Shown piece by piece: positions 7,962 to 34,467 of a stretch of DNA of 64,000 bases. The stretch is taken from positions 372,001-436,000 of the forward strand of contig NZ_CP083239.1 in the NCBI RefSeq assembly GCF_022836935.1, read 5' to 3'. Position numbers and translations under genes: made by a program. The stretch comes from Ancylobacter polymorphus (GTDB lineage Bacteria > Pseudomonadota > Alphaproteobacteria > Rhizobiales > Xanthobacteraceae). Below the pieces are notes generated by a model. It had not been told where the DNA came from, made no database searches, and saw nothing but the letters and a program-made list of their open reading frames with translations. Position 1 is the first letter of the stretch; every line of letters begins with the position of its first letter.

Positions 7962-8167
7962 CGTCCTTCTCCAGCACCGCTGCTGGCACTACTGCCAGAT
8001 CAGAGGACCGAAAGGCTGGGCACCTCGCCTACATCACGCAAGGCGGCCCGCAGCGGAGGGGTACCGAGATCCTGCCCCCTCTCCCCATGAAACCTCCCGC
8101 GCCCCCGTTGCCGGGGGCCGGCGCTTCGATTATGAAGACGCGGCACAGGCGCATTCCTCGCGCCCAG

Positions 8168-9490
<1,323 letters not shown>

Positions 9491-20386: not shown

Positions 20387-21238
20387 CTATGCTTTCACCG
20401 CTCCGGCCGTCAGTCCCGCCACGAAATGCTTCTGCATCAGGAAGAACAGGCACACCGGCGGCAAGGCGGCGAAGAGCGCCGCGGAGGAAATAAGGTTCCA
20501 GGCCGTCAGCCACTCGCCCTTGAGGCCGGCGATGCCGAGCGTCAGCGGCTTGGCGGAATCGCTCTGCACCAGCACCAGCGCCCAGAAATAGTCGTTCCAG
20601 ACAAAGGTGAAGATCAGCACGGCCAGTCCCGCGAGCGCCGGGCGCAGCAGCGGCAGTACGATGCGGCGCAGGATCTGCATCTCGGTGGCCCCCTCGATGC
20701 GCGCCGCCTCGAACAACTCGTTGGGCAGCGAGATGATGAAGTTGCGCAGGAACAGGGTGGCGAACCCCGTCTGGAACGCGGTGTGGAACAGCACCAGCCC
20801 CCACACGGTGTCATAGAGCCCGACCCCCAGCACCATGTTGCGCACCGGGATCATCAGGATCTGGTAGGGGATGAAATTGCCGCCGATGAACATCGCGAAC
20901 AGCAAGGTACTGCCGGGGATGCGGTATTTCGCCAGCGCCACAGCAGCCATGGTGGCGAGGATCAGCACCAGCACCACCGTGGTGCCGGTAACCGTGACGC
21001 TGTTGAGGAAGAACCCCCACATCGGCGAGGTCGCGAACATTTCACGGTAATTATCGACCAATGCGAAGCGCGACGGCGCGCCCCAGTAATTGCCTTCCAA
21101 CAGGTCCGACTGCGAGCGGATCGCCGTCATCATGATGGCGAGGAGCGGCAGCATCCACACCAGCATCGCCGCATAGAGCGCCAAGCGATAGCCCAGGCGC
21201 ACGCCGGCGGAGCGTTCAGTGACCGGGGTGGGATACAT
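20387..21238 (-). CDS. Carbohydrate ABC transporter permease (second)
   Basis: 283 residues with six membrane helices. The EAA loop reads LPNELFEAARIEGATEMQIL RRIVLPLLRPAL, as in CUT1 MalG/UgpE-type permeases. The start overlaps the preceding permease stop by 1 base. It is the last gene of the solute-binding protein/permease/permease run on the minus strand. Confidence 0.93.
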   Translation of the reverse strand: MYPTPVTERSAGVRLGYRLALYAAMLVWMLPLLAIMMTAIRSQSDLLEGNYWGAPSRFALVDNYREMFATSPMWGFFLNSVTVTGTTVVLVLILATMAAVALAKYRIPGSTLLFAMFIGGNFIPYQILMIPVRNMVLGVGLYDTVWGLVLFHTAFQTGFATLFLRNFIISLPNELFEAARIEGATEMQILRRIVLPLLRPALAGLAVLIFTFVWNDYFWALVLVQSDSAKPLTLGIAGLKGEWLTAWNLISSAALFAALPPVCLFFLMQKHFVAGLTAGAVKA

Positions 21239-22122
21239 CAGGCGCCCCTCTGTTCACGACGCAGCGTGTGCCGCAGGAAGAAGGCGATGTAGACGCTCAT
21301 GATGAGGAACAGCACCGTGGCGATGGCGGCGCCATAGCCGGCGCGGTAGCTAAAGATGGTGGCGTCGTACATCTGATAGGCGAGGACGGTGGAACTGCCA
21401 TAGGGCCCGCCCTGCGTCATCACCGCGATGAGGTCGAAATTCCGCAGCGAGCCGATCACCGTGATGATCGTCGCCACGAAGGAGACGGCGCGCAGCTGCG
21501 GCAGCACGATGTGGCGCAGCAGCGTCCAGCCGGAGGCGCCGTCAATCCGGCCCGCAGCGATCAGTTCGCCGTCGAGCTGGGAAAGCCCGGCGAGGAACAG
21601 CACCAGGCAGAAGGCGGTCTGCGCCCACAGCGCGGCGAAGACGATGCCGAAAGTGACGAAATGCTCGTCGGAGAGAATGGCGAAGGGTTCGAAGCCGAAG
21701 AAACGCATCACTATGGCGAGGATGCCGAAGGTCGGGTCGTAGAACCAGGTGAACACTACACCGATGATGACATTGGCCAGCACCAGCGGGATGAAGAACA
21801 CGGATTTGACGATGCGCATCTCGCCGAGCGGCTGGTTGAGAAACAGCGCGAGCGCGAGACCGAACACCGGCGCCAGAAGAAACAGAACGATCCAGATGAT
21901 GTTGTTCTTCAATGAGGTGAAGAACTGCGCGTCGGCGAACAGTTCCCGGTAATTGTCCAGCCCGACGAAGGTGGCCGGACCCGTGCCGTCCCACTCATAG
22001 AAGCTGATGGCGATGCTCTGGAGGATCGGCCAGACGATCATCATCAGGAACAGCGCCAGCGGCAGCAGCAGCAGGAGGATTGGCGTCAGCCAGGACTGGT
22101 TTCGGCGCCAGATGCGCAGCAT
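21238..22122 (-). CDS. Carbohydrate ABC transporter permease (first)
   Basis: 294 residues, six helices. The EAA loop LIAAGRIDGASGWTLLRHIV and an N-terminal helix ending in IAISFYEWDG are typical of MalF/UgpA-type CUT1 permeases. It forms the membrane channel with the second permease and lies 70 bases after the solute-binding protein. Confidence 0.93.
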   Translation of the reverse strand: MLRIWRRNQSWLTPILLLLLPLALFLMMIVWPILQSIAISFYEWDGTGPATFVGLDNYRELFADAQFFTSLKNNIIWIVLFLLAPVFGLALALFLNQPLGEMRIVKSVFFIPLVLANVIIGVVFTWFYDPTFGILAIVMRFFGFEPFAILSDEHFVTFGIVFAALWAQTAFCLVLFLAGLSQLDGELIAAGRIDGASGWTLLRHIVLPQLRAVSFVATIITVIGSLRNFDLIAVMTQGGPYGSSTVLAYQMYDATIFSYRAGYGAAIATVLFLIMSVYIAFFLRHTLRREQRGA

Positions 22123-22192
22123 GGGAACCTCGGGCGAGAAGGGACGGGTCGCCCCGCCGATAGGGGCCCGCCATGGCGGGCCCCGGCCGCGT

Positions 22193-23452
22193 TCAGTTGA
22201 AGATGCGCTTGCGGGCCGCGTCCAGCCGCTCGAGGATCGCGTCCTCGCGGTCGGGCTTGGCGAGGAACTCCTGGAAGCCCTTCATGCCGACCTGCGCCAT
22301 TTCCGGGTCGGTGTCGCGGTCATAGAACTGCGACGAGCCGGCGGAATTGCGTACCTGTTCCATCTGCACCGAGGCGAAATCATTCGGGTCGATCTGGATA
22401 TCGGTGCGCGCGGGCACCACCGAGCCGCCCTTAGCGAAGGCCGAGAGGTTCTCCGGCTGGGCGAGGAAGGCGAGGAACTTCAGCGCCAGCTCCTTGTTCT
22501 TCGCGCCTTTGGGAATGCCGACGCCGTTGATCGAGACCTGCTCGATATTGGGCACGGAAGGATCGACCGTCGGGAACGGGAAGAAGCCGATGTTCTTGCG
22601 GGCTTCCTCGGGCAGCGAAGTCAGCACATAGGGGCCGAGCAGATACATCGCCGCCTTGCCCTGCGCCAGGAACGGGATCGCTTCCTGCCAGCCATAGGAG
22701 GAGGCATTATCGAGGAAATAGCCCTTCTCGATCGGCACGCGCCAGGTGTCGAACACCTTCTTCATGCGCGGATCGGTGTAGCTTTCCTGCCCGTTCATCA
22801 GGCCCATGTAGAAATCGAGGCCGTTGATACGCTTGGTGAGATAGTCGAACCACAGCGCATTGGCCCAGAGGTCGCGCGTGCCGATGGTGAACGGCACGAT
22901 GCCGGCCGCCTTCGCTTTCTCGGCGATCGCCATCAGCTCGTCCCACGTCTTGGGCGGCTCGACGCCGAGCTTGGCGAACACTTCCTTGTTGTAGAAGAAG
23001 CCCCAGGTGTTGAAATTGGTGGGCATCATATACTGCTTGCCGTTGTCCGTGACGGCGGCAAGGAAGGGCTCCATCGGCTTCTCAAGCTTGTTCTGCGTGT
23101 AGAAGCCGCTGATATCGGTGAACAGGTCGCGCTTGGTGAAGGCGCGCATGCGGGCGCCGGTGAACCAGAAGGCTACGTCCGGCGGGCTGGCGACAAGGAA
23201 GTTGCGGATCGAGGTCTTGTAGGATTCGACGTCGCTGTAATTGACGGTGACCTTGACGCCGGGATTGGCGGCCTCGAAATCGGCGACGATCTTGTTCATC
23301 GCCGCCTTCTGCCCGGCGCCGCTGCGATCGGTGTTGATCACCAGCGTTTCCTGGGCCGCCGCCGGGGTGGCGAAGGGGTGGAGCAGGCCGCAGGCGAGGG
23401 CAAGCGCACCCGCCCCCATGAGCAGGGCGCGACGCGGCAGGGAAAGCGTCAT
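22193..23452 (-). CDS. Extracellular sugar-type solute-binding protein
   Basis: 419 residues from the ATG at 23452, chosen because GGAGG lies exactly 7 bases before it; the ATG two codons earlier is too close. The signal sequence RRALLMGAGALALACG ends near TPAAAQE. The mature part (DFEAANPGVKVTVNYSDVES, then FWFTGARMRAF) is a family 1 carbohydrate-binding protein. It captures the substrate in the periplasm for the two permeases downstream. A copy of the TetR palindrome sits about 120 bases upstream. Confidence 0.92.
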   Translation of the reverse strand: MTLSLPRRALLMGAGALALACGLLHPFATPAAAQETLVINTDRSGAGQKAAMNKIVADFEAANPGVKVTVNYSDVESYKTSIRNFLVASPPDVAFWFTGARMRAFTKRDLFTDISGFYTQNKLEKPMEPFLAAVTDNGKQYMMPTNFNTWGFFYNKEVFAKLGVEPPKTWDELMAIAEKAKAAGIVPFTIGTRDLWANALWFDYLTKRINGLDFYMGLMNGQESYTDPRMKKVFDTWRVPIEKGYFLDNASSYGWQEAIPFLAQGKAAMYLLGPYVLTSLPEEARKNIGFFPFPTVDPSVPNIEQVSINGVGIPKGAKNKELALKFLAFLAQPENLSAFAKGGSVVPARTDIQIDPNDFASVQMEQVRNSAGSSQFYDRDTDPEMAQVGMKGFQEFLAKPDREDAILERLDAARKRIFN

Positions 23453-23570
23453 TGTCATTCCTCCGTTGCTGGGCCGGTTTCGATCTCGCATCCACATTTC
23501 TCGGGACGCTTCAAATGCGCGGCAAGGGTGCGGCCCATCGCTTGTCGCGTCTCATGCCAGAGAACTCTAG

Positions 23571-23591
23571 ACTTACTTATCGATAAGTCAA
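23571..23591. promoter_or_regulatory. TetR-type operator, site 1
   Basis: ACTTATCGATAAGT (23575-23588) is a perfect 14-base palindrome, flanked by ACTTACT/AGTCA. It lies between the ABC ATPase and the solute-binding protein gene, upstream of the latter, and shares its core with site 2 at 24817 and arms with site 3 at 26260. Confidence 0.75.
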
Positions 23592-23625
23592 TTTCGGGTC
23601 CAGCCTGCCACGCCCGAGGCGGGGG

Positions 23626-24681
23626 TCAACTGATGCGGCGCCCCGTTGTCCGGTCGAACAGATGCACCTGATCCGCATCGGGCAGGACGCGGATTTTCTC
23701 GCCCGGCCGGACGGCGACGCGGCTGCGGAACAGACAGTTGAACTCGGCACCGCCGACGCGGACCAGCACCTCGGTCTCCGAGCCCGTGGGCTCGACAACC
23801 ACCACATCGGCCTCGACGCCGGCGTCGTCGATGCGGAAATGCTCGGGGCGCACGCCATAGACCGCCTCACCCTGTGGGGCCGCCTGCCACCGCCGGCCCG
23901 CCGGAAGCACCAGCCGGTCGCCGGCGCGAAACGCGCCGTTCTCGAACTGCCCTTCGAGAAAGTTCATGCTGGGCGAGCCGATGAAGCCGGCGACGAACTG
24001 ATTGTCCGGGCGATCATAGAGGTCGAGCGGCGCGCCGATCTGCTCGATCACCCCGTCGCGCATCACCACGATCTTGTCCGCCATCGTCATCGCCTCGATC
24101 TGGTCATGGGTGACGTAGACGGTGGTGGTCTTGAGCCGCTGCTGCAGTTCCTTGATTTCCGCCCGCATGGCGACGCGCAGCTTGGCGTCCAGGTTGGAGA
24201 GCGGCTCGTCGAACAGGAACACCTGCGGGTCGCGGACGATGGCGCGCCCCATGGCGACGCGCTGGCGCTGGCCGCCGGAGAGCTGGCGCGGATAGCGGTC
24301 GAGCAGCGGCATCAGGCCGAGGATCTGCGCCGCCTTTTCGACCCGCTGGCGGATTTCCTCTTTCGGCGCGCTGCGCAGCGACAGGGCGAAGGCCATGTTC
24401 TCGTAGATCGACATGTGCGGGTAGAGCGCGTAGCTCTGGAACACCATGGCGATGTCGCGATCCTTCGGCGACACGTCGTTGACCACGCGCGTGCCGATCT
24501 GGATCTCGCCGGCCGTCGCCTTCTCAAGCCCGGCGATGGTACGCAGGAGCGTTGATTTTCCGCAGCCGGACGGGCCGACGAGGATGACGAACTCCCCGTC
24601 CGCAATGTCGACCGAAACGCCCCGCAGAATATGGGTTTCCCCGAACTTCTTGTGGACGTCGCGGATGGTCACCGATGCCAT
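23626..24681 (-). CDS. Sugar ABC transporter ATPase (UgpC/MsmK type)
   Basis: 351 residues from the ATG at 24681; the longer frame to 24741 adds an unlikely Cys-rich leader. Walker A GPSGCGKST near residue 40, signature LSGGQRQRVAMGRA, Walker B VFLFDEPLSNLDAKL and the switch His in VTHDQ are intact. The C-terminal TOBE-like domain (GVRPEHFRI) marks it as a CUT1 ATPase. It energises the two downstream permeases. Confidence 0.93.
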   Translation of the reverse strand: MASVTIRDVHKKFGETHILRGVSVDIADGEFVILVGPSGCGKSTLLRTIAGLEKATAGEIQIGTRVVNDVSPKDRDIAMVFQSYALYPHMSIYENMAFALSLRSAPKEEIRQRVEKAAQILGLMPLLDRYPRQLSGGQRQRVAMGRAIVRDPQVFLFDEPLSNLDAKLRVAMRAEIKELQQRLKTTTVYVTHDQIEAMTMADKIVVMRDGVIEQIGAPLDLYDRPDNQFVAGFIGSPSMNFLEGQFENGAFRAGDRLVLPAGRRWQAAPQGEAVYGVRPEHFRIDDAGVEADVVVVEPTGSETEVLVRVGGAEFNCLFRSRVAVRPGEKIRVLPDADQVHLFDRTTGRRIS

Positions 24682-24816
24682 GGGGAAGGTCTCACGATCC
24701 TGGATTCGCCACCCGAGGCAGGCGTGGCACTGCGTTTCCACTGCGCCTCTTAGGCCTTGCCGGGCCGACGCTCGTCCAGAGAGCTAGCATTGACCTTGGA
24801 GGCGGTCAATGCAAAG

Positions 24817-24834
24817 TTACTTATCGATAAGTAA
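24817..24834. promoter_or_regulatory. TetR-type operator, site 2
   Basis: TTACTTATCGATAAGTAA is a perfect 18-base palindrome in the gap between the ABC ATPase (leftward) and the MaoC-like gene (rightward). It can control both. It ends 18 bases before the MaoC start. Confidence 0.8.
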
Positions 24835-24852
24835 GTTTTCTGGGGAGGCCGC

Positions 24853-25362
24853 ATGACCGTTGACGCAACGACACTTCTTTCGCCTGCCGGCGCGCTGCCG
24901 CCCGGTCTTTACGGCTATGACGACCTCTCCGAAGGAGCTTTCTTCCTCACCTCCGGCGTCACCGTCACCGAAGCCCATATCGTCGGCTATGCCGGCATCT
25001 CCGGCGATCTGTTCGACGTGCATATGGACGATGCCTTCGCGCGCGAGCAGGGCTTTCCCGGCCGCATCGCCCATGGCCTGCTGGGCCTCGCCCTGATCGA
25101 CGGGCTGAAGACCCGTTGCCCGGTCAGGCTGCAGGGAATCGCGACGCTGTCGTGGAACTGGTCGTTCAAGGCGCCAATCCTGATCGGCGACCGCATCGCC
25201 GCACGCTTCGATGTGTACGCCAAGCGCCCGACCCGCCGCGCCGACCGGGGCATCGTCAGCTTTAACGTGAACGTCGTGAACCAGAATGGCGAGGTGGTGC
25301 AGGAAGGGCAGACCCTGCTGATGATGGGGGGACGAAAAACGAGCGACGCGGCATCGGCTTGA
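24853..25362 (+). CDS. MaoC-like (R)-enoyl-CoA hydratase family protein
   Basis: 169 residues, ATG preceded by GGGGAGG. GYAGISGDLFDVHMDDAFAR and FPGRIAHGLLGL are the hydratase 2 motif with the catalytic Asp and His of MaoC/PhaJ hot-dog-fold enzymes that add water to enoyl-CoA. Only a single domain is present. It is the first gene of the rightward unit and is followed by the TetR regulator. A CoA-dependent step here fits the CoA-transferase gene downstream. Confidence 0.88.
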   Translation: MTVDATTLLSPAGALPPGLYGYDDLSEGAFFLTSGVTVTEAHIVGYAGISGDLFDVHMDDAFAREQGFPGRIAHGLLGLALIDGLKTRCPVRLQGIATLSWNWSFKAPILIGDRIAARFDVYAKRPTRRADRGIVSFNVNVVNQNGEVVQEGQTLLMMGGRKTSDAASA

Positions 25363-25431
25363 CCGATTGCCGCCGCTTGCTCATCTGTTTGCAGCACGCG
25401 AATACGCCGCGTGAGTGGGAGTTATCAGCCG

Positions 25432-26100
25432 ATGGCGCGCAAGGCCGGCGGAGAGACGGTGGCACCGAGCCGCCTGTCGATGCGCGACAACATCAAGAAG
25501 GTGGCGACCGAACTGCTGATCCGCCACGGCTATCACGGCACCAGCTTTCGCCACATCGCCGACCGGCTCGATATCACCACGACCAATATCCACTACCATT
25601 TCGGCAACAAGGAAAAGCTGGTCGAGGAGGTCGTGCGCGACTACGTCACCAGCACCTGCGCCAAACACAAGGCGATCTGGGAAGCGCCGGACCGTTCGCT
25701 GCCGCAGAAGCTGATGGACGTCGCCGTCTTCAACCGCACCCGCTACAAGGCGTTCAACCGCGGCCGCAAGAGCGGGCAGCCCTGGAGCCTCATCGGGCGG
25801 CTGCGTCTGGAAGGCGAAGTGCTGAGCCCGGGCGCGCGCGAATCACTCGCCTCGTTCACCGACAATGTGCAGGCCGCCGTCCGCGTCGCGGTGCAGATCG
25901 CCTATGACCGCGGCGAACTCGTCAGCGACGCGCCGCTGGACGACATCGCCTTTCTCTTGGTGAACATCGTCAACAGTTCGTCGGTCTTCACCCAGGACGC
26001 CGGCAATTTCGAGCGGCTGGAACAGTTCTTCGAGGCTTTCTCGCGGGTGATGCTCTCCGCCTACGCGCCTGTGAGCCGACCGGACGTCGCGGCCCAGTAA
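25432..26100 (+). CDS. TetR-family regulator of the cluster
   Basis: 222 residues from ATG 25432 (a GTG at 25411 is possible but has no ribosome site). NIKKVATELLIRHGYHGTSF and DRLDITTTNIHYHFGNKEKL form the TetR helix-turn-helix. The C-terminal ligand domain has no recognised substrate signature. The gene follows the MaoC gene by 69 bases. With the three palindromes at 23571, 24817 and 26260, it is probably an autoregulating repressor of the transporter and catabolic genes. Confidence 0.9.
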   Translation: MARKAGGETVAPSRLSMRDNIKKVATELLIRHGYHGTSFRHIADRLDITTTNIHYHFGNKEKLVEEVVRDYVTSTCAKHKAIWEAPDRSLPQKLMDVAVFNRTRYKAFNRGRKSGQPWSLIGRLRLEGEVLSPGARESLASFTDNVQAAVRVAVQIAYDRGELVSDAPLDDIAFLLVNIVNSSSVFTQDAGNFERLEQFFEAFSRVMLSAYAPVSRPDVAAQ

Positions 26101-26259
26101 CCTCCGGCGCCGTCCCGTCCCGCACCACCGCGCCCTTCTCACGTCATTCTCGCCCTTGCGCCGAAGAGCCGCCTTGCCATGCAGGGCGGTCCCGGGCGCA
26201 GCACCGCCGTTGCGCGGGAAGGTCGTCTCAAGCACAGGGTTGCGGATGTGCGGATTCTG

Positions 26260-26277
26260 ACTTACTGATAAGTAAGT
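26260..26277. promoter_or_regulatory. TetR-type operator, site 3
   Basis: ACTTACT-GATA-AGTAAGT: 7-base arms as in sites 1-2 but with a 4-base instead of 8-base centre. It lies 42 bases before the CoA-transferase start. The shorter centre may change affinity. Confidence 0.65.
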
Positions 26278-26318
26278 TTAGAGGCAATTGGTGCCTTCCA
26301 TCCTTCTGGAGTCTTGGG

Positions 26319-27908
26319 ATGAATATCCTCACGGCGTCGGCCGCAGCGGCGCTCGTGCGCGATGGCGACACGATTCTCATCGGCGGTTCCGGGTCCGGAC
26401 ACGCGGTACCGGAAGCTCTCATCGCCGCCGTCGAACTGCGTTTCCTGGCCGAACAGCAGCCGCGCCGCCTGACCACGATCCACCCCGTTGGTCTCGGCAA
26501 TCGCGGCGAGGCTGGCGCCTCGCGCTTCGCCCATGACGGCCTGATCCGCCGCGTGGTCTGCGGCACTGTGGTCGACGCGCCGCCTCTGGCCGCCATGGCG
26601 AGCCGCGACGCGATCGAGTGCTACACCCTGCCCCAGGGCGCCCTGTCCCAGCTGATCCGCGAGATCGCCGCCGGCCGGCCGGGGCTGCTGACCCATGTCG
26701 GGCTGCACACCTTCGTCGATCCCCGCCTCGCCGGCGGCAAGCAGAGCCGAGCCTGCTCCGAGGACCTCGTGGAGCTGGTCACGCTGAAGGACCGCGAATG
26801 GCTGTTCTACAAGCCCTTCCCCATCGACGTCGCCTTCCTGCGCGGGACCACTGCCGATGAGGATGGCAACATCTCGATGGAGGACGAGGCGATCTTCGGC
26901 GAGATGCTCTCCATGGCGCAGGCCACGCGGCGCCTTGGCGGGCTGGTGATCGTGCAGGTCAAGCGCCTCGCGCGACGCGGCACGCTGCCCGCCAAGACGG
27001 TGAAAATCCCCGGCATGCTGGTGGACGCCGTTGTGGTCGATGCCGAGCAGAAGCAGACCTACCAGACCTTCTTCGATCCCGCCTTCGCCGGCCAACTCCG
27101 CATGCCGCTGGAAGGCTTCCCGCGCCTGCCGCTCGACGAGCGCAAGATCGTCGCCCGGCGTTGCGCGATGGAATTGCGGCGGGGCGCCGTCTGCAACATC
27201 GGATCGGGCATCTGCACCGGCATCGGCCTTGTGGGCGCCGAGGAGGGGCTGCTCGACGAGGTGGTGCTCACCAATGAACAGGGACTGATCGGCGGCGCGC
27301 CGGCCTCCGGCCTCGATGCGGGCGCGGCGCGCAACTATTGGGCGATGATCGACCAGCCCTACCAGTTCGATTTCTATGATGGCGGCGGGCTCGACATCGC
27401 TTTCCTCTCCGCGGTGGAGGTCGACCGCGCCGGCAATGTGAACATCAGTCGCTTCGCCGGCCGGGTCGTCGGCATTGGCGGCTTCGTCAACATCAGCCAG
27501 AACGCGCGCACCATGGTGTTCGGCGGCACCTTCACCGCCGGAGGCCTGAAGGTGCGGGCCGAGAATGGCGAACTCGTCATCGTCGAGGAAGGCAAGCACC
27601 GCAAATTCGTCGAGGCCGTCGAGCAGGTCGCCTATAGCGGCCCCTATGGACGCTCCCGCGGCCAGACCACGCTGTTCGTCACCGAGCGCGCGGTGTTCCG
27701 CACCGGTGAGGATGGGATCGAACTGATCGAGATCGCCCCCGGCATCGATCTGGAGCGCGACGTGCTCGGCCAGATGGCCTTCACCCCCCGCATCGCTCCA
27801 ACGCTCAAGTGCATGGATGCACGCCTCTTCCGTCCCGAGCCGATGGGAATCGCCGCCGACATGCCGGGCGACTGGCGCGTGCACGATCGGCTGCGCTCCG
27901 CCTCGTGA
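26319..27908 (+). CDS. Acyl-CoA:acetate/3-oxoacid CoA-transferase (YdiF-like)
   Basis: 529 residues, alpha and beta halves fused. VRDGDTILIGGSGSGHAVPE opens the N-terminal half and VLTNEQGLIGGAP near residue 319 carries the glutamate expected to form the glutamyl-CoA intermediate of class I transferases. It moves CoA between carboxylic acids in the cytosol. It starts the right-hand catabolic operon, with a TetR-type palindrome upstream and the DUF993 gene 20 bases downstream. The real acid substrate is unknown. Confidence 0.9.
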   Translation: MNILTASAAAALVRDGDTILIGGSGSGHAVPEALIAAVELRFLAEQQPRRLTTIHPVGLGNRGEAGASRFAHDGLIRRVVCGTVVDAPPLAAMASRDAIECYTLPQGALSQLIREIAAGRPGLLTHVGLHTFVDPRLAGGKQSRACSEDLVELVTLKDREWLFYKPFPIDVAFLRGTTADEDGNISMEDEAIFGEMLSMAQATRRLGGLVIVQVKRLARRGTLPAKTVKIPGMLVDAVVVDAEQKQTYQTFFDPAFAGQLRMPLEGFPRLPLDERKIVARRCAMELRRGAVCNIGSGICTGIGLVGAEEGLLDEVVLTNEQGLIGGAPASGLDAGAARNYWAMIDQPYQFDFYDGGGLDIAFLSAVEVDRAGNVNISRFAGRVVGIGGFVNISQNARTMVFGGTFTAGGLKVRAENGELVIVEEGKHRKFVEAVEQVAYSGPYGRSRGQTTLFVTERAVFRTGEDGIELIEIAPGIDLERDVLGQMAFTPRIAPTLKCMDARLFRPEPMGIAADMPGDWRVHDRLRSAS

Positions 27909-27928
27909 ACCTCAGCAGGGAAAACGCC

Positions 27929-29116
27929 ATGACACCCCCCGCGACGCGCCCCTCTGGCCTCTCCCTCTCGCTTCCTCGCGCGGACGGCACGCTGGAGACC
28001 TATCGTCTCACCGGCACGCCGCTGCCGGCGACCGCGCCGCAGCGTCCGTTCACCCGCATCGCCTATGCCGCCGGCCATGTCGTCGTCGACCCGCGCGCGC
28101 CCTTCGACCCTGCAGTTCGGACGGTGGTGGACTGGGAGCGCACCCTGGCGTTCCGCGAGCATCTGTGGGGTCTTGGGCTCGGCATCGCCGAGGCGATGGA
28201 CACCGCCCAGCGCGGCATGGGCGTGGACTGGCCGACCTCGCTGGAGCTGATCCGCCGCACCAGCGCCGCCGCCGGCCGCGACCGGCTCGTGGTCTCCGGC
28301 TGCGGCACCGATCAGCTCGCGCCGGCCGAGGCCCGCACGCTCGACGATGTCATCCGCGCCTATGAAGAACAGATCGAGGCGATCGAGGCCAGCGGCAGCC
28401 GTCTCGTGCTCATGGCGTCGCGCGCGCTCGCCCGCGTCGCCAAAGGACCCGACGATTATATCGCCGTCTATGACCGGCTGCTGCGGCAGGTCAGCCGTCC
28501 CGTCGTGCTGCACTGGCTCGGCGACATGTTCGACCCCGCTCTGGCGGGGTATTGGGGAACGCCGGACGTAGCCGGCGCCATGGATGTGGTGGCCGGCATC
28601 ATCGGCACCCACGCCGCGAAGGTGGACGGCATCAAGATCTCCCTGCTTGAGGCCGCCCACGAGATCGCGCTGCGCCGTCGCCTACCGGAGGGCGTGAGGA
28701 TGTATACGGGCGACGACTTCAACTATGTCGCGCTGATCGAGGGCGACGGCAGCTATCACTCGCATGCGCTGCTCGGCGCCTTCGATGCCATTGCGCCGGC
28801 AGCCTCCGCCGCTTTGGGCCGGCTGGCGGATGGCGATGCCGAGGGATACCGCGCCCTCCTCCAGCCGACCGAATCGCTGTCCCGGCACCTCTTCGCCGCG
28901 CCGACCCAGTTCTACAAGACGGGCGTGGTGTTCATGGCCTATCTCAATGGCCACCAGGATCATTTCACCATGGCCGGCGGGCTGGAGAGCGCGCGCTCGG
29001 CCGTTCACCTCGCCGACATTTTCCGTCTCGCCGATGCGAATGGCCTGCTGGCCGATCCCGAACGGGCGACGCGCCGGATGAAGGTGGTGATGGCGCTGCG
29101 CGGGATCGAGGGATGA
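27929..29116 (+). CDS. DUF993 dihydrodipicolinate-synthase-like protein
   Basis: 395 residues from the ATG at 27929; an upstream frame start at 27809 lies inside the CoA-transferase gene. The fold is DapA-like: TIM-barrel segments VVLHWLGDMFDPALAGYW, AKVDGIKISLLEA (Lys in the Schiff-base strand position) and YTGDDFNYVALIEGDG match the DUF993 family. That suggests an aldolase or lyase on a 2-oxo or keto-sugar acid. The stop overlaps the AroE-like start by 4 bases. Confidence 0.85.
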   Translation: MTPPATRPSGLSLSLPRADGTLETYRLTGTPLPATAPQRPFTRIAYAAGHVVVDPRAPFDPAVRTVVDWERTLAFREHLWGLGLGIAEAMDTAQRGMGVDWPTSLELIRRTSAAAGRDRLVVSGCGTDQLAPAEARTLDDVIRAYEEQIEAIEASGSRLVLMASRALARVAKGPDDYIAVYDRLLRQVSRPVVLHWLGDMFDPALAGYWGTPDVAGAMDVVAGIIGTHAAKVDGIKISLLEAAHEIALRRRLPEGVRMYTGDDFNYVALIEGDGSYHSHALLGAFDAIAPAASAALGRLADGDAEGYRALLQPTESLSRHLFAAPTQFYKTGVVFMAYLNGHQDHFTMAGGLESARSAVHLADIFRLADANGLLADPERATRRMKVVMALRGIEG

Positions 29117-29946
29117 CACCCGCCACGCTTCCCGACCTCCCCGGCCTGCCGCTGCCCCTTTCCGGCGCCACGCGGGTCTATGCCATTGTCGGCGATCCGA
29201 TCGCGCAGGTCGGCTCGCCCGGCCTGTTCAACGCCGCCTTCCGGCGCCGGGGCGTCGAAGCGATTCTCGTGCCGCTGCATGTAGCGCCGGACGGCCTCGC
29301 CGACCTTATGCGCATGTTTCGCGCGACGAAGAACTTTGACGGCCTCATCGTCACCGTTCCGCACAAGATCGCCATTGCCGCACTGATCGACGAGATCGGT
29401 CCGATGGGGCGCCGGATCGGCGCGGTGAACGCCATCCACAAGCGCGACGGCCGGCTCGTCGGCGACAATTTCGACGGCACCGGCTTTGTGCGCGGGCTGC
29501 AGGCCAAGGGCCATGGGCTCGGCCGCCGCCGCGTCCTCGTCATCGGCTCCGGCGGTGCCGGCCGCGCCGTGGCGCATGCCGTTGCCGATGAAAGGCCGGC
29601 GCGGCTGCGCCTGTTCGATGTCGATCCCGCGCGCGCGCAAACCGTGGTCGCGGAGCTCAAGGCTGCCGCTCCCGGTCTCGACGCCGATATCGGCGCGCCC
29701 GACCCGTCCGGCTTCGACGTGGTGGTCAACTGCACCTCGGTCGGCATGCGGCCGGAGGATCCGTTCCCGGTGGCTGTCGACCCTCTCGGCCCCGGCACGC
29801 TCGTTGTCGACATCATCCTCAAGCCGACGGTGACGCCGCTGCTAGCCGAAGCCGGCCGCCGCGGCTGCCTCACCCATGCCGGCGCCCCCATGCTCGAGGG
29901 CCAGGTCGACGCGGTGTGCGATTTCTTTGGGCTGGCCGCGCCATGA
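29113..29946 (+). CDS. Shikimate-dehydrogenase-like oxidoreductase (AroE family)
   Basis: 277 residues. VTVPHK (Lys 85) and DNFDGTGF (Asp 121) are the catalytic pair and GSGGAGRAVAHAV is the NAD(P) loop. The substrate-side motif SxSP of housekeeping AroE is changed: QVGSPGLFN has Val in place of the first Ser. This and the operon point to a shikimate- or quinate-like polyol other than the aromatic-pathway substrate. Overlaps both neighbours by 4 bases. Confidence 0.88.
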   Translation: MTPATLPDLPGLPLPLSGATRVYAIVGDPIAQVGSPGLFNAAFRRRGVEAILVPLHVAPDGLADLMRMFRATKNFDGLIVTVPHKIAIAALIDEIGPMGRRIGAVNAIHKRDGRLVGDNFDGTGFVRGLQAKGHGLGRRRVLVIGSGGAGRAVAHAVADERPARLRLFDVDPARAQTVVAELKAAAPGLDADIGAPDPSGFDVVVNCTSVGMRPEDPFPVAVDPLGPGTLVVDIILKPTVTPLLAEAGRRGCLTHAGAPMLEGQVDAVCDFFGLAAP

Positions 29947-30779
29947 CGCTAACGCCACAACACTGTGCGATCAACACGGCAACGCTTGGCTATAAGGAGC
30001 CGATCGACCGCGTCATCGACCAGATCGCCCGCCATGGCTTCGGCGCCATCGCCCCATGGCGCCGGGAAGTCGAGGGCGGCGACGTTGCCGCGATCGGCCG
30101 GCAGATACGCGATGCCGGCCTTGCCGTCTCCGGCTATTGCCGCAGCACGGCGATCCCTGCCGAGACGGCTGCGGCGCGGCGGGCGCAGCTGGAGGAGAAC
30201 CGGCGGGCTCTGGCGGATGCCGCCACGCTGGGCGCGGCATGTTTCGTCATCGTCGCCGGCGGGCTTGCAGGCGGCAGCCGCGACCTCGCGGATGCCCGTG
30301 CCCAGGTCGAGGAAGGGCTCGGCCATCTGCTGGTGGAGGCGCGCTCTCTCGGTGTGCCCGTCGCCATCGAGCCACTTCACCCGATGTACGCGGCCGACCG
30401 ATGCTGCGTGAACACCCTGGCGCAGGCCCTCGATCTGTGCGCTCGCCTCGATCCCGACAATGCCGGCGGCATCGGCGTCGCGCTCGACGCCTATCACGTG
30501 TGGTGGGACCCGGACCTTTCCGCCGGCATCCGTCGCGCTGGCCGCGAGCGGCGGCTCCTCGCCTTTCACATCTGCGATTGGCTGGTCCCCACCGCCGATC
30601 TGCTGATGGATCGCGGCATGATGGGCGATGGTGTCATTGATCTTGGCGAACTGCGCCGCAATGTTGAGGCCACCGATTTCACCGGATTTGCTGAGATCGA
30701 GATATTCTCGAATCGGTGGTGGTCCACCGCCAGCGATGAGACGCTGCGAGTCTGTGTCGATCGCTTACGCTCGTTATAG
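29943..30779 (+). CDS. Sugar phosphate isomerase/epimerase-like TIM barrel
   Basis: 278 residues from the ATG overlapping the previous stop; the longer start at 29916 is inside the AroE-like gene. ATLGYKEPIDRVIDQIARHG, VAIEPLHPMYAADRCCVNTL, ALDAYHVWWDP and FHICDW place metal-binding Glu, Asp and His on strand ends, as in xylose-isomerase-like and 3-dehydroshikimate-dehydratase-like barrels. It is the last gene of the operon. Role: isomerisation or dehydration of the same ring substrate is likely but not shown. Confidence 0.85.
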   Translation: MTLTPQHCAINTATLGYKEPIDRVIDQIARHGFGAIAPWRREVEGGDVAAIGRQIRDAGLAVSGYCRSTAIPAETAAARRAQLEENRRALADAATLGAACFVIVAGGLAGGSRDLADARAQVEEGLGHLLVEARSLGVPVAIEPLHPMYAADRCCVNTLAQALDLCARLDPDNAGGIGVALDAYHVWWDPDLSAGIRRAGRERRLLAFHICDWLVPTADLLMDRGMMGDGVIDLGELRRNVEATDFTGFAEIEIFSNRWWSTASDETLRVCVDRLRSL

Positions 30780-31038: not shown

Positions 31039-31452
31039 ATGAACAAGAGCCGGTTCAGCGAAGAGCAGATCATTGCGGTGCTGAAGGAGCATCAGGCCGG
31101 GATTGCGGTCGCGGATATCTGCCGCAAGCACGGGATCAGCGACGCGGCCTTCTACAACTGGCGCAATCGCTATGGCGGGATGGAAGTATCCGACGCACGT
31201 CGGCTGAAGGCGTTGGACGACGAGAACCGCAAGCTCAAGAAGCTTTTGGCGGAATCGATGCTGGACGTCGCGACGCTTCGCGAGGCGCTCGGAAAAAATT
31301 CTGAAGCCCGGATCGCGGAGAGCGCTAGTGAACTGGGCGATCGAGGAGAAGAGCTACTCGCAGCGTCGGGCCTGCGGTCTGATCGGGCTCGCCCCAAAAG
31401 ACCTTGCCTCGCGGCGAGCAGACGATGCGGATATTCACCAGCTTCTGTCTGT
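31039..31452 (+). pseudogene. IS3-family transposase fragment (orfA and start of orfB)
   Basis: MNKSRFSEEQIIAVLKEHQA and RKHGISDAAFYNWRNRYGGM are the orfA helix-turn-helix of IS3-family elements, with the leucine-zipper region after it. OrfB begins in the -1 frame after an A-run near 31290 (VNWAIEEKSYSQRRACGLIG) and is cut after about 45 residues, before any catalytic residue. Ends are not definable. The gap 30780-31038 before it contains no gene. Confidence 0.85.
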
Positions 31453-31570
31453 AGCTTGGCGCGGGCGGCGTCAGAGAAGCGCTTCAGGCTCTCGATGATG
31501 ACTTTCGGGCCGATCCGCTCGACCGCGGCCTGCGCGCGTCGGCCTGGGCCTTTTCACGAATCGCGGTCCA
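31453..31570 (-). pseudogene. Relic of a large serine recombinase coiled-coil region
   Basis: Read on the minus strand: RPQAAVERIGPKV, then ESLKRFSDAARAKL, which parallels AQAAVERTGPKV and ESLKRFSEVARAKL in the recombinase at 8179-9490. It is about 118 bases long, in frame and without ends. It joins directly onto the truncated IS3 orfB, marking an old recombination joint. Confidence 0.7.
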
Positions 31571-31636
31571 TTCACCGCCCGCGCGACCCTGCCCAGCAGC
31601 ACTGTTGAGCAGGCGACAAGCGCGATCACCCACCGC

Positions 31637-32416
31637 TCAGGCCTCGCTGAGTATCTGCCGGCGCAGCTCGTCCGCCAGCGGATGCAGCCGGTCCGGGGCC
31701 ACCGCTCCGATGAGGCTGTAGCCAAGGCCATCGTCAGCCCAGGCGAAGCCGTTGAGGGCGCCTTCGGTGTGCGGCGACATTGGCAGGGTCGGATCGACCT
31801 TCATCGGGCGCGCCAGCATCACGAGGCGCGTCCCGCGATCGTCGTCAAACATGAACAGCGCGGCAGGACCGTGCTCGGTTGGAACCACGCGCCCGCCCAT
31901 CAGCCGATAGCCGGCCGCCGTCAGATCCGGAATGCCTATCGGACGACCGATGCGCTTGGCGGTCCAGGCGGCGAGCACGTCACGATCGCTGGCCCGAATT
32001 TCGACTGGTCGCACCAGGTCCGGCACATAGGTCGCATAACTCGCGGCCGCCTCGCGGGCGAGTGCCTGAACGCCTTCCGAGCTCGGGGCGCTCAGGTCGC
32101 GCAGCGACCAGCCGCCGGCGGCGCCCATTGACAGCAGCAACACCGCCGCCGCCGCAATCGCCCAGCGTGGCGCCTGCCGTGGCAGGCGGCGTTCCTCGAT
32201 CATGCGCGACAGGTCGAGTTCCGTCGGCACCGGCTCGTCCATGACAGGCGCGAAGGCGGCACGCAGCATGTCGCGCTGCTCGCCATAGACCGCGATTCGT
32301 TGGCCAATGTGCGGATGTGCGTCGAGATAGGCGCTTACCTCGGCGCGGCGATCGGGAGTGAGCGTGCCGTCGACGAAACCGTTCAGGTCGTCCTCGGTGA
32401 TCGGAAGAGGGGTCAT
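31637..32416 (-). CDS. Anti-sigma factor (membrane-anchored)
   Basis: 259 residues. The N-terminal 80 residues (LPITEDDLNGFVDGTLTPDR) resemble anti-sigma domains that hold ECF sigma factors, but the HxxxCxxC zinc motif is absent. One membrane helix (WAIAAAAVLLLSMGAAGGW, about 84-103) is followed by a periplasmic domain. The start overlaps the sigma gene stop by 4 bases, the standard sigma/anti-sigma arrangement. It would release the sigma factor on an envelope signal. Confidence 0.88.
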   Translation of the reverse strand: MTPLPITEDDLNGFVDGTLTPDRRAEVSAYLDAHPHIGQRIAVYGEQRDMLRAAFAPVMDEPVPTELDLSRMIEERRLPRQAPRWAIAAAAVLLLSMGAAGGWSLRDLSAPSSEGVQALAREAAASYATYVPDLVRPVEIRASDRDVLAAWTAKRIGRPIGIPDLTAAGYRLMGGRVVPTEHGPAALFMFDDDRGTRLVMLARPMKVDPTLPMSPHTEGALNGFAWADDGLGYSLIGAVAPDRLHPLADELRRQILSEA

Positions 32417-32943
32417 TTCACGCTCCGGAGATGGGGCGACTGGCGGGCTGTGGGCGGCTCTGCGGACATCAGCTTCGCAAGGCGTTCGCGGGCACGCGAC
32501 AGGCGCGACATGACCGTGCCGATCGGCACGCCCAACACCTGCGCCGCGTCGACATAGGAGAGTTCCTCGACAGTGACCAGCAGAAGCACGGTCCGCTGCT
32601 CATCGGGCAACTGCGCCAGCGCGTCGACGAGGTCTCGATGGCGCAACCCGTCCTCCTGTCGGGCCGCCGAGGCAAAGCTCGCCGGATCGGCATCGTCGAG
32701 CGCTATATGGATCGGACGCTGCGTCGACCGGCGCAGCCGCGTCATGGCGAGATTGTGCAGGATAGTGAAGATCCAGGCCCGAGGGTCTTCGCCCGGCCGC
32801 CGCTGGTGCCAGCGGCTGATGGTACGCTCCAGACAATCCTGCACCAGATCGTCCGCCGCCGTCCGCTCCCGCATCAGCGCGCGCGCATATCGCCGCAATG
32901 CGGGGATCAGCGGCTCGAAGAGGCGCACCATCTCGTGGTTCAC
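32413..32943 (-). CDS. ECF RNA polymerase sigma factor
   Basis: 176 residues from the GTG at 32943, which has AAGGAGA 4 bases before it; the frame to 33042 lacks a ribosome site. Region 2 (ADDLVQDCLERTISRW, AWIFTILHNLAMTRLR) and region 4 (LPDEQRTVLLLVTVEELSY, then VPIGTVMSRLSRARERL) are intact. It sits at the end of an operon with DUF305 and YVTN proteins; the twin GGAATAA-N13-GAGTC sites at 35 kb are its likely promoters. Confidence 0.93.
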   Translation of the reverse strand: MNHEMVRLFEPLIPALRRYARALMRERTAADDLVQDCLERTISRWHQRRPGEDPRAWIFTILHNLAMTRLRRSTQRPIHIALDDADPASFASAARQEDGLRHRDLVDALAQLPDEQRTVLLLVTVEELSYVDAAQVLGVPIGTVMSRLSRARERLAKLMSAEPPTARQSPHLRSVK

Positions 32944-33010
32944 GGTGTCTCCTTTCGGGGAGAGGCGCGCCTCCCCTATGAGCGACTGTCCAGGCGGAGG
33001 CGGTGGCGCG

Positions 33011-34467
33011 TCAATCCAGAGCCTGGCGCTGGACGACGGCATCAGGCTGAGCGACCGTACCCTCCATGATGACGAGATAGCGGCGCCCTGCCTTGGCCTC
33101 GTTCTGCACGATCTGGCGGATGGGTCCGGCGGCGTTGACGATTGCGGAGCCGGCGGGATTGGTCATGAAGACCGAGAGCGGCTCGATCGCGCCCGTGCCG
33201 TCGGGCTGGCTGGCCAGCGCCAATGTATGCGGCGTCTTCGGCGCGAGGCCGGTCACCGACGCCTGCAGGACCTGGATAAGCCCCTGGTCGAACAGCGAGA
33301 GGCTGGTCGGGGCCTTGCCGGCGGCCTTGCCGTCCCTGGTCAGGCCGAGATGGGCCGCCTGCCCGGCGACGCCGAGCGGCTGGAGGTTCTGCGTGCCCTC
33401 GCCCTCCGGCACGGCGCCTGGCACATAATTGACCACCTGCGGCGCCTGGCCAACGGGAATGGTGGCAATCACCGTGTTGGTCAGCGTGTCGATCGCGGCC
33501 AGCGCATCGGCGTTCTCCAGCCCGACATAAACGCGCGAGCCATCACCCGACGGCCAGAGGCCGTGCGGCAGCTTGCCGACCGGGATCATCGCCACCTGCG
33601 TGAAGTCGTCCGTGCGGAACACCTTGACCTCGTTGAGGCCGCCGATTGTCACATAGGCGAAGCTGCCATTGGCGTTCCGCGCGAAGTTGACGTGGTTGGT
33701 AAGCGGGCCGGTGTCGATCGTCGTGATCACGTCGAAGGGCGGCTGTGCGTTGAACACTTGCGTCTTTCCGATGTCCTTCAGCGTGAGCCAGACCTGCTTG
33801 CCGTCCGGCGTCGCGGCGATGTTCGGACAGAACGGGCTCGCCTGCTTCACACGGCCGACAATCGCGTGGTCGGTGACCGAAACGACCACCGTTTCGGGCA
33901 TGAAGGAGGAGCAGACATAGCCGTATTTGCCGTCCGGCGAGAAGATCTGCATACCCGGCCCGTTTGGCACCTTGATGCGCGTCTTCTCCTCATAGGTGGC
34001 GCTGTCGAGCACGGCGATATAGTCCTCGCCGCGCACCGTCACCCAGACCTCCTTGCCGTCCGGCGTGAAGAAGGCCTCGTGCGGCGGCGACCGACATACG
34101 TCGTGTGCTTCACCGCATTGGTGGCGGTGTCGATGAAGGTGACCGCGTTCGAGCCGATCGACACCACCGCGAGCGTCTTGCGGTCGGGTGAGAAGCCCAT
34201 GCCGTGCACCAGCACCTGCCCCTTGTAGAGCGGGCTGAAATTCATCGGCTGCGGCTCGCCCAGCCGGATGATGCCGACCAGCCGGTTGGTGGCTGGATCG
34301 GTGACGGAGATGGTGTTGGAGAACTGCTCGGCGGCATAAACGCGGTCGCGGCTGCTCAGCGGAATGTCCGGGGCGGAGGCGGCGAACGGGGCCTGTCCGG
34401 CAACGGCGGGCACCGCACAGGAGAGCAGGGTGCTGGCGAGCAGGCCGGTGAGGACGGATCTGTTCAT
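33011..34467 (-). pseudogene. YVTN beta-propeller secreted protein, frameshifted
   Basis: A signal peptide (LLASTLLSCAVPAVAGQ) and propeller repeats (YAAEQFSNTISVTDPATNRL) are read from 34467 to about 34090. The rest (FFTPDGKEVWVTVRGEDYIA onward) is in another frame down to 33011. A single missing base in the CGCCGCCGC run near 34088-34100 accounts for the break; intact length would be about 485 residues. The last 110 residues form a separate CHRD-like module (LALASQPDGTGAIEPLSVFM). It could be a sequencing error, since all other regions are well preserved. Upstream gene: DUF305. Confidence 0.8.

Follow-up and report, generated by a model that had tools for sequence, protein, structure and literature searches.

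A predicted TetR catabolic regulon around the aldolase-fold family DUF993 in Ancylobacter polymorphus

A 64,000-nucleotide stretch of the Ancylobacter polymorphus genome (NZ_CP083239.1, positions 372,001 to 436,000; hereafter the window, in whose coordinates positions are given) contains a block of ten intact genes, 20387-30779, that appears to be a catabolic regulon under a TetR-family regulator, with the aldolase-fold family DUF993 among its enzymes. Open reading frames and a Pfam/NCBIfam profile scan of the window place every gene of the block in the family that an initial annotation had assigned to it. The minus strand encodes a CUT1 importer made of two permeases, a solute-binding protein (SBP) and an ATPase, while the plus strand encodes a MaoC-like protein and the TetR regulator, followed by a CoA-transferase, DUF993, an AroE-like dehydrogenase and an AP_endonuc_2 barrel. 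These genes and three putative operators are listed here; L004 and similar labels denote loci compared with the window, L004 itself being a Rhizobiales metagenome-assembled genome.

20387..21238, minus strand: CUT1-type ABC permease (second); PF00528 2.1e-14, GlcU/UgpE-like; 86% identical gene in L004
21238..22122, minus strand: CUT1-type ABC permease (first); PF00528 6.9e-12; 81% in L004
22193..23497, minus strand: solute-binding protein, AcbH-like; PF01547 1.8e-43; best solved relative AcbH 3oo6, 2.5e-46
23571-23592, minus strand: operator 1, with the exact 18-mer ACTTATCGATAAGTAAGT at 23571-23588; precedes SBP-permease-permease
23626..24681, minus strand: UgpC/MalK-type ABC ATPase; NF008653 502 bits, exceeding the cut-off of 432
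24815-24836, plus strand: operator 2, with the exact 18-mer at 24819-24836; between the divergent ATPase and MaoC-TetR units
24853..25362, plus strand: MaoC-like (R)-hydratase (predicted); PF01575 5.1e-20; Asp and His retained (SGDLFDVH)
25411..26100, plus strand: TetR-family regulator; PF00440 1.1e-13
26260-26277, plus strand: operator 3, ACTTACTGATAAGTAAGT; precedes the CoA-transferase operon
26319..27908, plus strand: YdiF/FadX-type family I CoA-transferase; PF01144 1.8e-30; YdiF 2ahu 1.2e-137, Glu aligned
27929..29116, plus strand: DUF993; class I aldolase fold, K236 invariant
29113..29946, plus strand: AroE-like NAD(P) dehydrogenase, not shikimate-type at SxSP; PF08501 9.3e-20; best solved relative 4k28
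29943..30779, plus strand: AP_endonuc_2 TIM barrel, sugar isomerase/epimerase type, SMc04130-like; PF01261 1.6e-35; 3ju2/3qc0

The true start of the SBP gene is probably at about 23458 and that of the TetR gene is probably the ATG at 25432. The 4-base overlaps (ATGA) first described for the last operon are present at two of its three junctions, but the CoA-transferase and DUF993 genes are separated by a gap of 20 bp.

When the three operator copies are aligned their common element is an 18-mer, ACTTAYNNRTAARTAAGT; the 22-bp palindrome consists of two such 18-mers overlapping, one per strand, and operator 3 is no longer than 18 bp. The chance expectation of the operator in the window is 0.00 (100 shuffles each for palindrome and 18-mer). 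The half-site GATAAGTAAGT occurs exactly three times genome-wide, all in this block, and the exact 18-mer is found nowhere else in the 5.2-Mb genome. A search at up to 2 mismatches returned the three sites and one extra (2 mismatches, G000:C1:552948), and a reversed-pattern control also returned one match. Because operator 2 is located between the divergent ATPase and MaoC genes, it can serve both. The ATPase gene, which lies apart from those of the SBP and permeases, may have its own promoter, so that the number of transcription units served by the three operators could reach four. The SBP gene has a sigma-70-like promoter match, overlapped by operator 1, but a weak one (one found against 0.3 expected). 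The early observation that the palindrome precedes all three units therefore stands, and its distribution in the genome makes a single TetR regulon, complete within the block, well supported.

The arrangement is conserved beyond this genome. In L004 all ten genes recur in unchanged order, 59-86% identical, with exact 18-mers before CoA-transferase and, at the place of operator 2, before MaoC. A plasmid of Paraburkholderia caribensis (L087) carries MaoC, TetR, CoA-transferase, AroE-like, DUF993 and barrel genes at 52-76% identity to the window, with an MFS transporter in place of the ABC importer and operators before MaoC (2 mismatches) and before CoA-transferase (exact). In the alphaproteobacterium L132, the CoA-transferase gene is divergent from MaoC-TetR, with a related palindrome, TTACTGACTAGTCAGTAA, lying between, and the set adjoins a DctP-type (TRAP) solute receptor. 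TetR proteins 58-67% identical to that of the window adjoin CoA-transferase/MaoC in L004, L087 and L132. The L087 AroE-like gene (8128-8952), whose product is 59% identical to that of the window, is annotated as a ThiF family adenylyltransferase, by similarity probably a misannotation.

Among 385 genomes of the class, a stricter 18-mer, ACTTAYTNRTAARTAAGT, occurs in three, all of which belong to the at least seven with a TetR homologue at E<=1e-25. With the window genome excluded, the 18-mer is found in 2/384, both among the 6/384 with the regulator (32% and 40% identity), an overlap that chance would produce 2 times in 10,000; its distance to the TetR gene in these two genomes is about 0.55 kb and 6.3 kb. 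These scans scored at most seven candidates per genome, which makes the counts of 7/385 and 1/398 (the window itself) lower bounds, and the failure to find the regulator in 195 genomes of one genus, with at most 14 candidates scored in each, is uninformative. A protein search returned 265 TetR relatives at E<=1e-30 (120 listed), and thus the regulator is more widespread than the genome samples show. For relatives of the CoA-transferase, no other module gene occurs in the 8.7 kb stretch around a 67% identical one (L191), or in the stretches around L192-L195 (51-54% identity; 4 of the 11 found besides L191).

DUF993 had been described as aldolase-like, and structure comparison agrees: the protein shares the (beta/alpha)8 fold of the dihydrodipicolinate-synthase (DHDPS) class I aldolase family. 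K236 is invariant in 27/27 aligned rows and lies inside strand 232-238 of the model, which would count as the sixth by our own strand numbering. DUF993 differs from the DHDPS / N-acetylneuraminate lyase superfamily in being about 100 residues longer, with 12-17% identity among the rows listed, and what we take to be the pyruvate-binding motif of that superfamily was not recognised in it by eye.

The initial annotation had also stated that the AroE-like dehydrogenase lacks the shikimate SxSP serine. This is true of the first serine, which is valine in the window (QVGSP) and in 9/10 aligned rows, window included, and alanine in the remaining one, but the second serine is retained in the window, and Lys (VPHK) and Asp (NFDG), presumably the catalytic residues of the shikimate dehydrogenase superfamily, are kept in 10/10 rows. 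The protein falls below the cut-off of all 17 NCBIfam models listed (best 185.8 bits against 252 required). Its best solved relative, 4k28, is presumably the protein called RifI2; the third best is 5-ketofructose reductase. Outside DUF993 loci, its relatives adjoin altronate-dehydratase-family genes in three of the four loci opened, the fourth lying elsewhere, and two of these three also adjoin DHDPS-family and aldehyde-dehydrogenase genes. The structural neighbours of the barrel are mostly sugar isomerases and ketose epimerases, and its E143, D182, H209, E251 and E253 are invariant in 21/21 rows, a Glu-Asp-His-Glu set that, by comparison with IolI, we take to be metal ligands. The CoA-transferase is similar to YdiF over its full length, with the Glu that is presumably catalytic aligned, and the MaoC protein retains the Asp and His of GDLFDVH, which we take to be the hydratase motif and which predicts (R)-hydratase activity. 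AcbH, the best solved relative of the SBP, is described as a beta-D-galactopyranose-binding protein in the available excerpt of PMC8233162.

The genes found beside DUF993 elsewhere place the block in a wider setting. From the best 80 of 591 relatives, the 63 with 6 kb on each side were counted (17 left out), and the counts describe the closest relatives. Partners within 6 kb were Gfo/Idh (58), barrel (48), an enolase-superfamily protein (38), TetR (31), CoA-transferase (15) and AroE-like (1). A hydratase is present in 15/15 loci with CoA-transferase, and MaoC is missing from 62/63. In other words, most of these sets lack partners on which the initial annotation had staked its pathway (CoA-transferase is absent from 48/63 and the AroE-like protein from 62/63 within 6 kb), which leaves the regulon itself unaffected. 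CoA-transferase was likewise absent among the scored genes in 24/24 DUF993 surroundings taken from the 66 genomes of the window's family that carry DUF993 (three with a short flank on one side). Given these counts, the general core would be dehydrogenase, barrel and DUF993, with CoA-transferase and hydratase forming one branch and the enolase-superfamily protein another; by gene content, the window is a CoA-coupled variant of what appears to be a wider DUF993 pathway.

Among other CoA-linked loci, L088 and L121 add aldo/keto reductase, glycerate kinase and short-chain dehydrogenase/reductase (SDR) genes, and glycerate kinase occurs in L086, L088 and L121. The L088 acyl-CoA dehydrogenase has acryloyl-CoA reductase as its best family, below the cut-off, which is only a hint at a C3 acid. 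L121, on an Octadecabacter arcticus plasmid, is another CoA-linked DUF993 set, with glycerate kinase, CoA-transferase, aldehyde dehydrogenase, CUT1 importer, MaoC, TetR and GMC oxidoreductase. Separately, proteins of 456-471 aa resembling the enolase superfamily adjoin DUF993 in L084 (11172-12587) and L005 (7470-8840); they give at most a weak Pfam signal, the L084 protein has no solved relative at E<=0.01, and on sequence they look like a divergent group.

We hypothesize, with a probability of roughly 0.62, that the block is a self-contained, substrate-inducible catabolic regulon, whose order of steps and chemistry we infer as follows. The TetR protein, a predicted repressor, would bind the 18-bp operator before the importer, MaoC-TetR and enzyme operons and come off the DNA in response to the substrate or an acyl-CoA intermediate. 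The importer, judging from its family, would take up a small carbohydrate-like compound. Once inside, this compound would be oxidised at a hydroxyl by the AroE-like dehydrogenase, the resulting ketone would be epimerised or isomerised by the metal-dependent barrel, and DUF993 would split the product in a class I retro-aldol reaction through a lysine imine. Of the two fragments, a short hydroxy- or enoic acid would be converted to its CoA ester by the YdiF-type CoA-transferase and, after hydration or dehydration by MaoC, enter central metabolism; the other would probably be a C3 keto or aldehyde compound.

Several observations weigh against this hypothesis. The SBP gene of L004 has no preceding operator and closely follows the ATPase gene. 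In L120, which has CoA-transferase, AroE-like, MaoC and barrel genes with an IclR regulator, two stretches were scanned and neither shows a palindrome, and L121, with DUF993, CoA-transferase, MaoC and TetR, is without the 18-mer. A comparison of DUF993 with a profile of three DHDPS-family proteins was not significant, and the kinship rests on structure. One of the 63 loci has none of the seven partner types tallied. Finally, for the acid fragment an acryloyl/propionyl-CoA route is suggested by acryloyl-CoA-reductase-like proteins in other CoA-linked loci, yet no acrylyl-CoA reductase AcuI exceeds the cut-off in the window genome, which weakens that route.

The DHDPS superfamily includes dehydratases and decarboxylases, and the fold alone does not separate such enzymes from aldolases; DUF993 could be one of these, acting on a keto-sugar acid. 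We consider this unlikely, as a separate enolase-superfamily protein, itself a likely dehydratase, is present in 38/63 DUF993 loci. It is also rather unlikely that the repressor governs two functions, CoA-transferase and MaoC acting on an external short acid and DUF993, dehydrogenase and barrel acting on a sugar. Such a division is suggested by L132, where CoA-transferase, MaoC, TetR, palindrome and TRAP-type receptor occur without DUF993 in a 17.5 kb stretch, and by L123/L124, with MaoC, CoA-transferase and AroE-like genes and no DUF993 in the stretch shown; against it, the CoA-transferase and DUF993 genes are neighbours in the window, and CoA-transferase and hydratase accompany DUF993 in other locus types too, with other CoA-transferase clades. 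The original proposal, in which a cyclic polyol (a cyclitol, quinate-like compound or carbasugar) is oxidised, ring-opened and then cleaved in a CoA-dependent manner, is improbable, as the AroE-like relatives beside altronate-dehydratase-family genes point to open-chain sugar acids, 5-ketofructose reductase is among the closest solved relatives of that dehydrogenase, the barrel resembles ketose epimerases, the galactose-binding AcbH (PMC8233162, in the part available) is the closest solved relative of the importer's SBP, and no ring-opening hydrolase or lyase was recognised in the block by the Pfam scan.

Beyond the proposed regulon for oxidation, epimerisation, retro-aldol cleavage and CoA activation, we tentatively propose, at somewhat less than even odds, that dehydrogenase, epimerase barrel and DUF993 constitute a widespread, unrecognised non-phosphorylating route, in which the cleaving enzyme would be a class I aldolase whose active site differs from that of the pyruvate-type DHDPS enzymes. 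The window would be its CoA-coupled version, with the AroE-like protein replacing Gfo/Idh and CoA-transferase and MaoC replacing the enolase-superfamily branch.

Phylogenies indicate how such versions may be assembled. The DUF993 tree was built from 69/93 rows after 24 near-identical rows were dropped; the barrel tree from 57 rows after dropping the same near-identical list and rows <230 aa; and the CoA-transferase tree after dropping 11 near-identical rows, with the L132 sequence included twice and a wrong-frame L004 MaoC row disregarded. A supported branch (98/92) splits the CoA-linked DUF993 rows, L087 excepted, from the rest. Neither a single DUF993 clade of window, L004 and L087 (p-AU 0.258) nor one of all 14 CoA-linked rows (p-AU 0.476) is rejected. 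On the barrel tree, L087 falls in a supported set of 10 mostly betaproteobacterial rows, and one clade of L087 with window and L004 is rejected (p-AU 0.008). A single clade (100/99) unites the CoA-transferases of window, L004, L132, L087 and both copies of L120. Set against the barrel tree, this clade indicates an exchange of at least the barrel alongside a retained CoA-transferase module; since the single DUF993 clade is not rejected, we claim re-pairing for the barrel only. Convergent assembly was discarded; the L087 cassette has CoA-transferase, MaoC, TetR and AroE-like proteins close to those of the window, but a barrel from a different lineage.

As the initial annotation had suspected, no characterised pathway with this gene set was found in the literature searched, and no paper there names DUF993 or PF06187; the search covered open literature, with subscription papers and preprints outside its scope. 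A DUF993 structure has been public since 2012 (4dnh). The closest known proteins are SMc04130 (3ju2/3qc0) and SMc04132 (4dnh) of Sinorhizobium meliloti, which belong to the same barrel (50%) and DUF993 (61%) families as those of the window. These solved structures are named only uncharacterised protein, hypothetical protein or sugar isomerase. Loci of this type differ from the window in usually having a Gfo/Idh dehydrogenase next to DUF993 rather than an AroE-like one; the Gfo/Idh protein of L084 matches 3oqb at 7.4e-181. SMc04132, SMc04133 and SMc04135 are tabulated without function in a section on PhaR-regulated gene expression in the available excerpt of PMC12542648.

Two characterised routes offer partial parallels, as far as the excerpts of their papers go. 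In deoxyribonate catabolism a sugar acid is oxidised, cleaved and routed via CoA, as in the proposed pathway, and the Klebsiella cluster contains a CoA-transferase and the glycerate kinase also seen in some DUF993 loci; cleavage there, however, is by a beta-keto acid cleavage enzyme or thiolase, and DUF993 is not mentioned in the excerpt (PMC6365646). In myo-inositol catabolism, also a carbohydrate pathway, DUF2090 has likewise been put forward as a lysine-type aldolase, but it is fused to a kinase and its proposed substrate is phosphorylated, whereas the window block is without a kinase (PMC9007349).

Counting the window genome, 66/149 sampled genomes of its family carry DUF993, which also occurs in 147 plasmid records and in one Chloroflexota genome (L078). 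Within the genus it is present in the window genome and in G062 and not in the five others listed, and G062 has a Gfo/Idh-type locus (L139) instead, so that the trait is accessory. The DUF993 and barrel of L139 adjoin those of Ancylobacter oerskovii (L039) on both trees. Those of L008, titled Frankia sp. RB7, group with Bradyrhizobium canariense, and this record is likely mislabelled or contaminated.

Downstream, 260 bp past the last gene, lies a seemingly truncated transposase-like ORF (31039-31608; PF01527, 1.2e-24), which we read as IS3-type, and a mobile element may mark the end of the block. Beyond it a sigma-factor gene with PhyR-type sigma-2 and sigma-70 region 4 domains (32413-33042) overlaps a neighbour without Pfam match (31637-32416) that may be its anti-sigma partner.

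TetR catabolic regulons are themselves a known kind; what would be new is one around an aldolase-fold family lacking an assigned function. With an importer and a regulator of its own, such a regulon allows the substrate to be approached directly in two ways, by screening ligands of the SBP and inducers of the TetR protein, and solving the substrate could give functions at once to DUF993, to the SMc04130-type barrel and to the 3oqb-type dehydrogenase.

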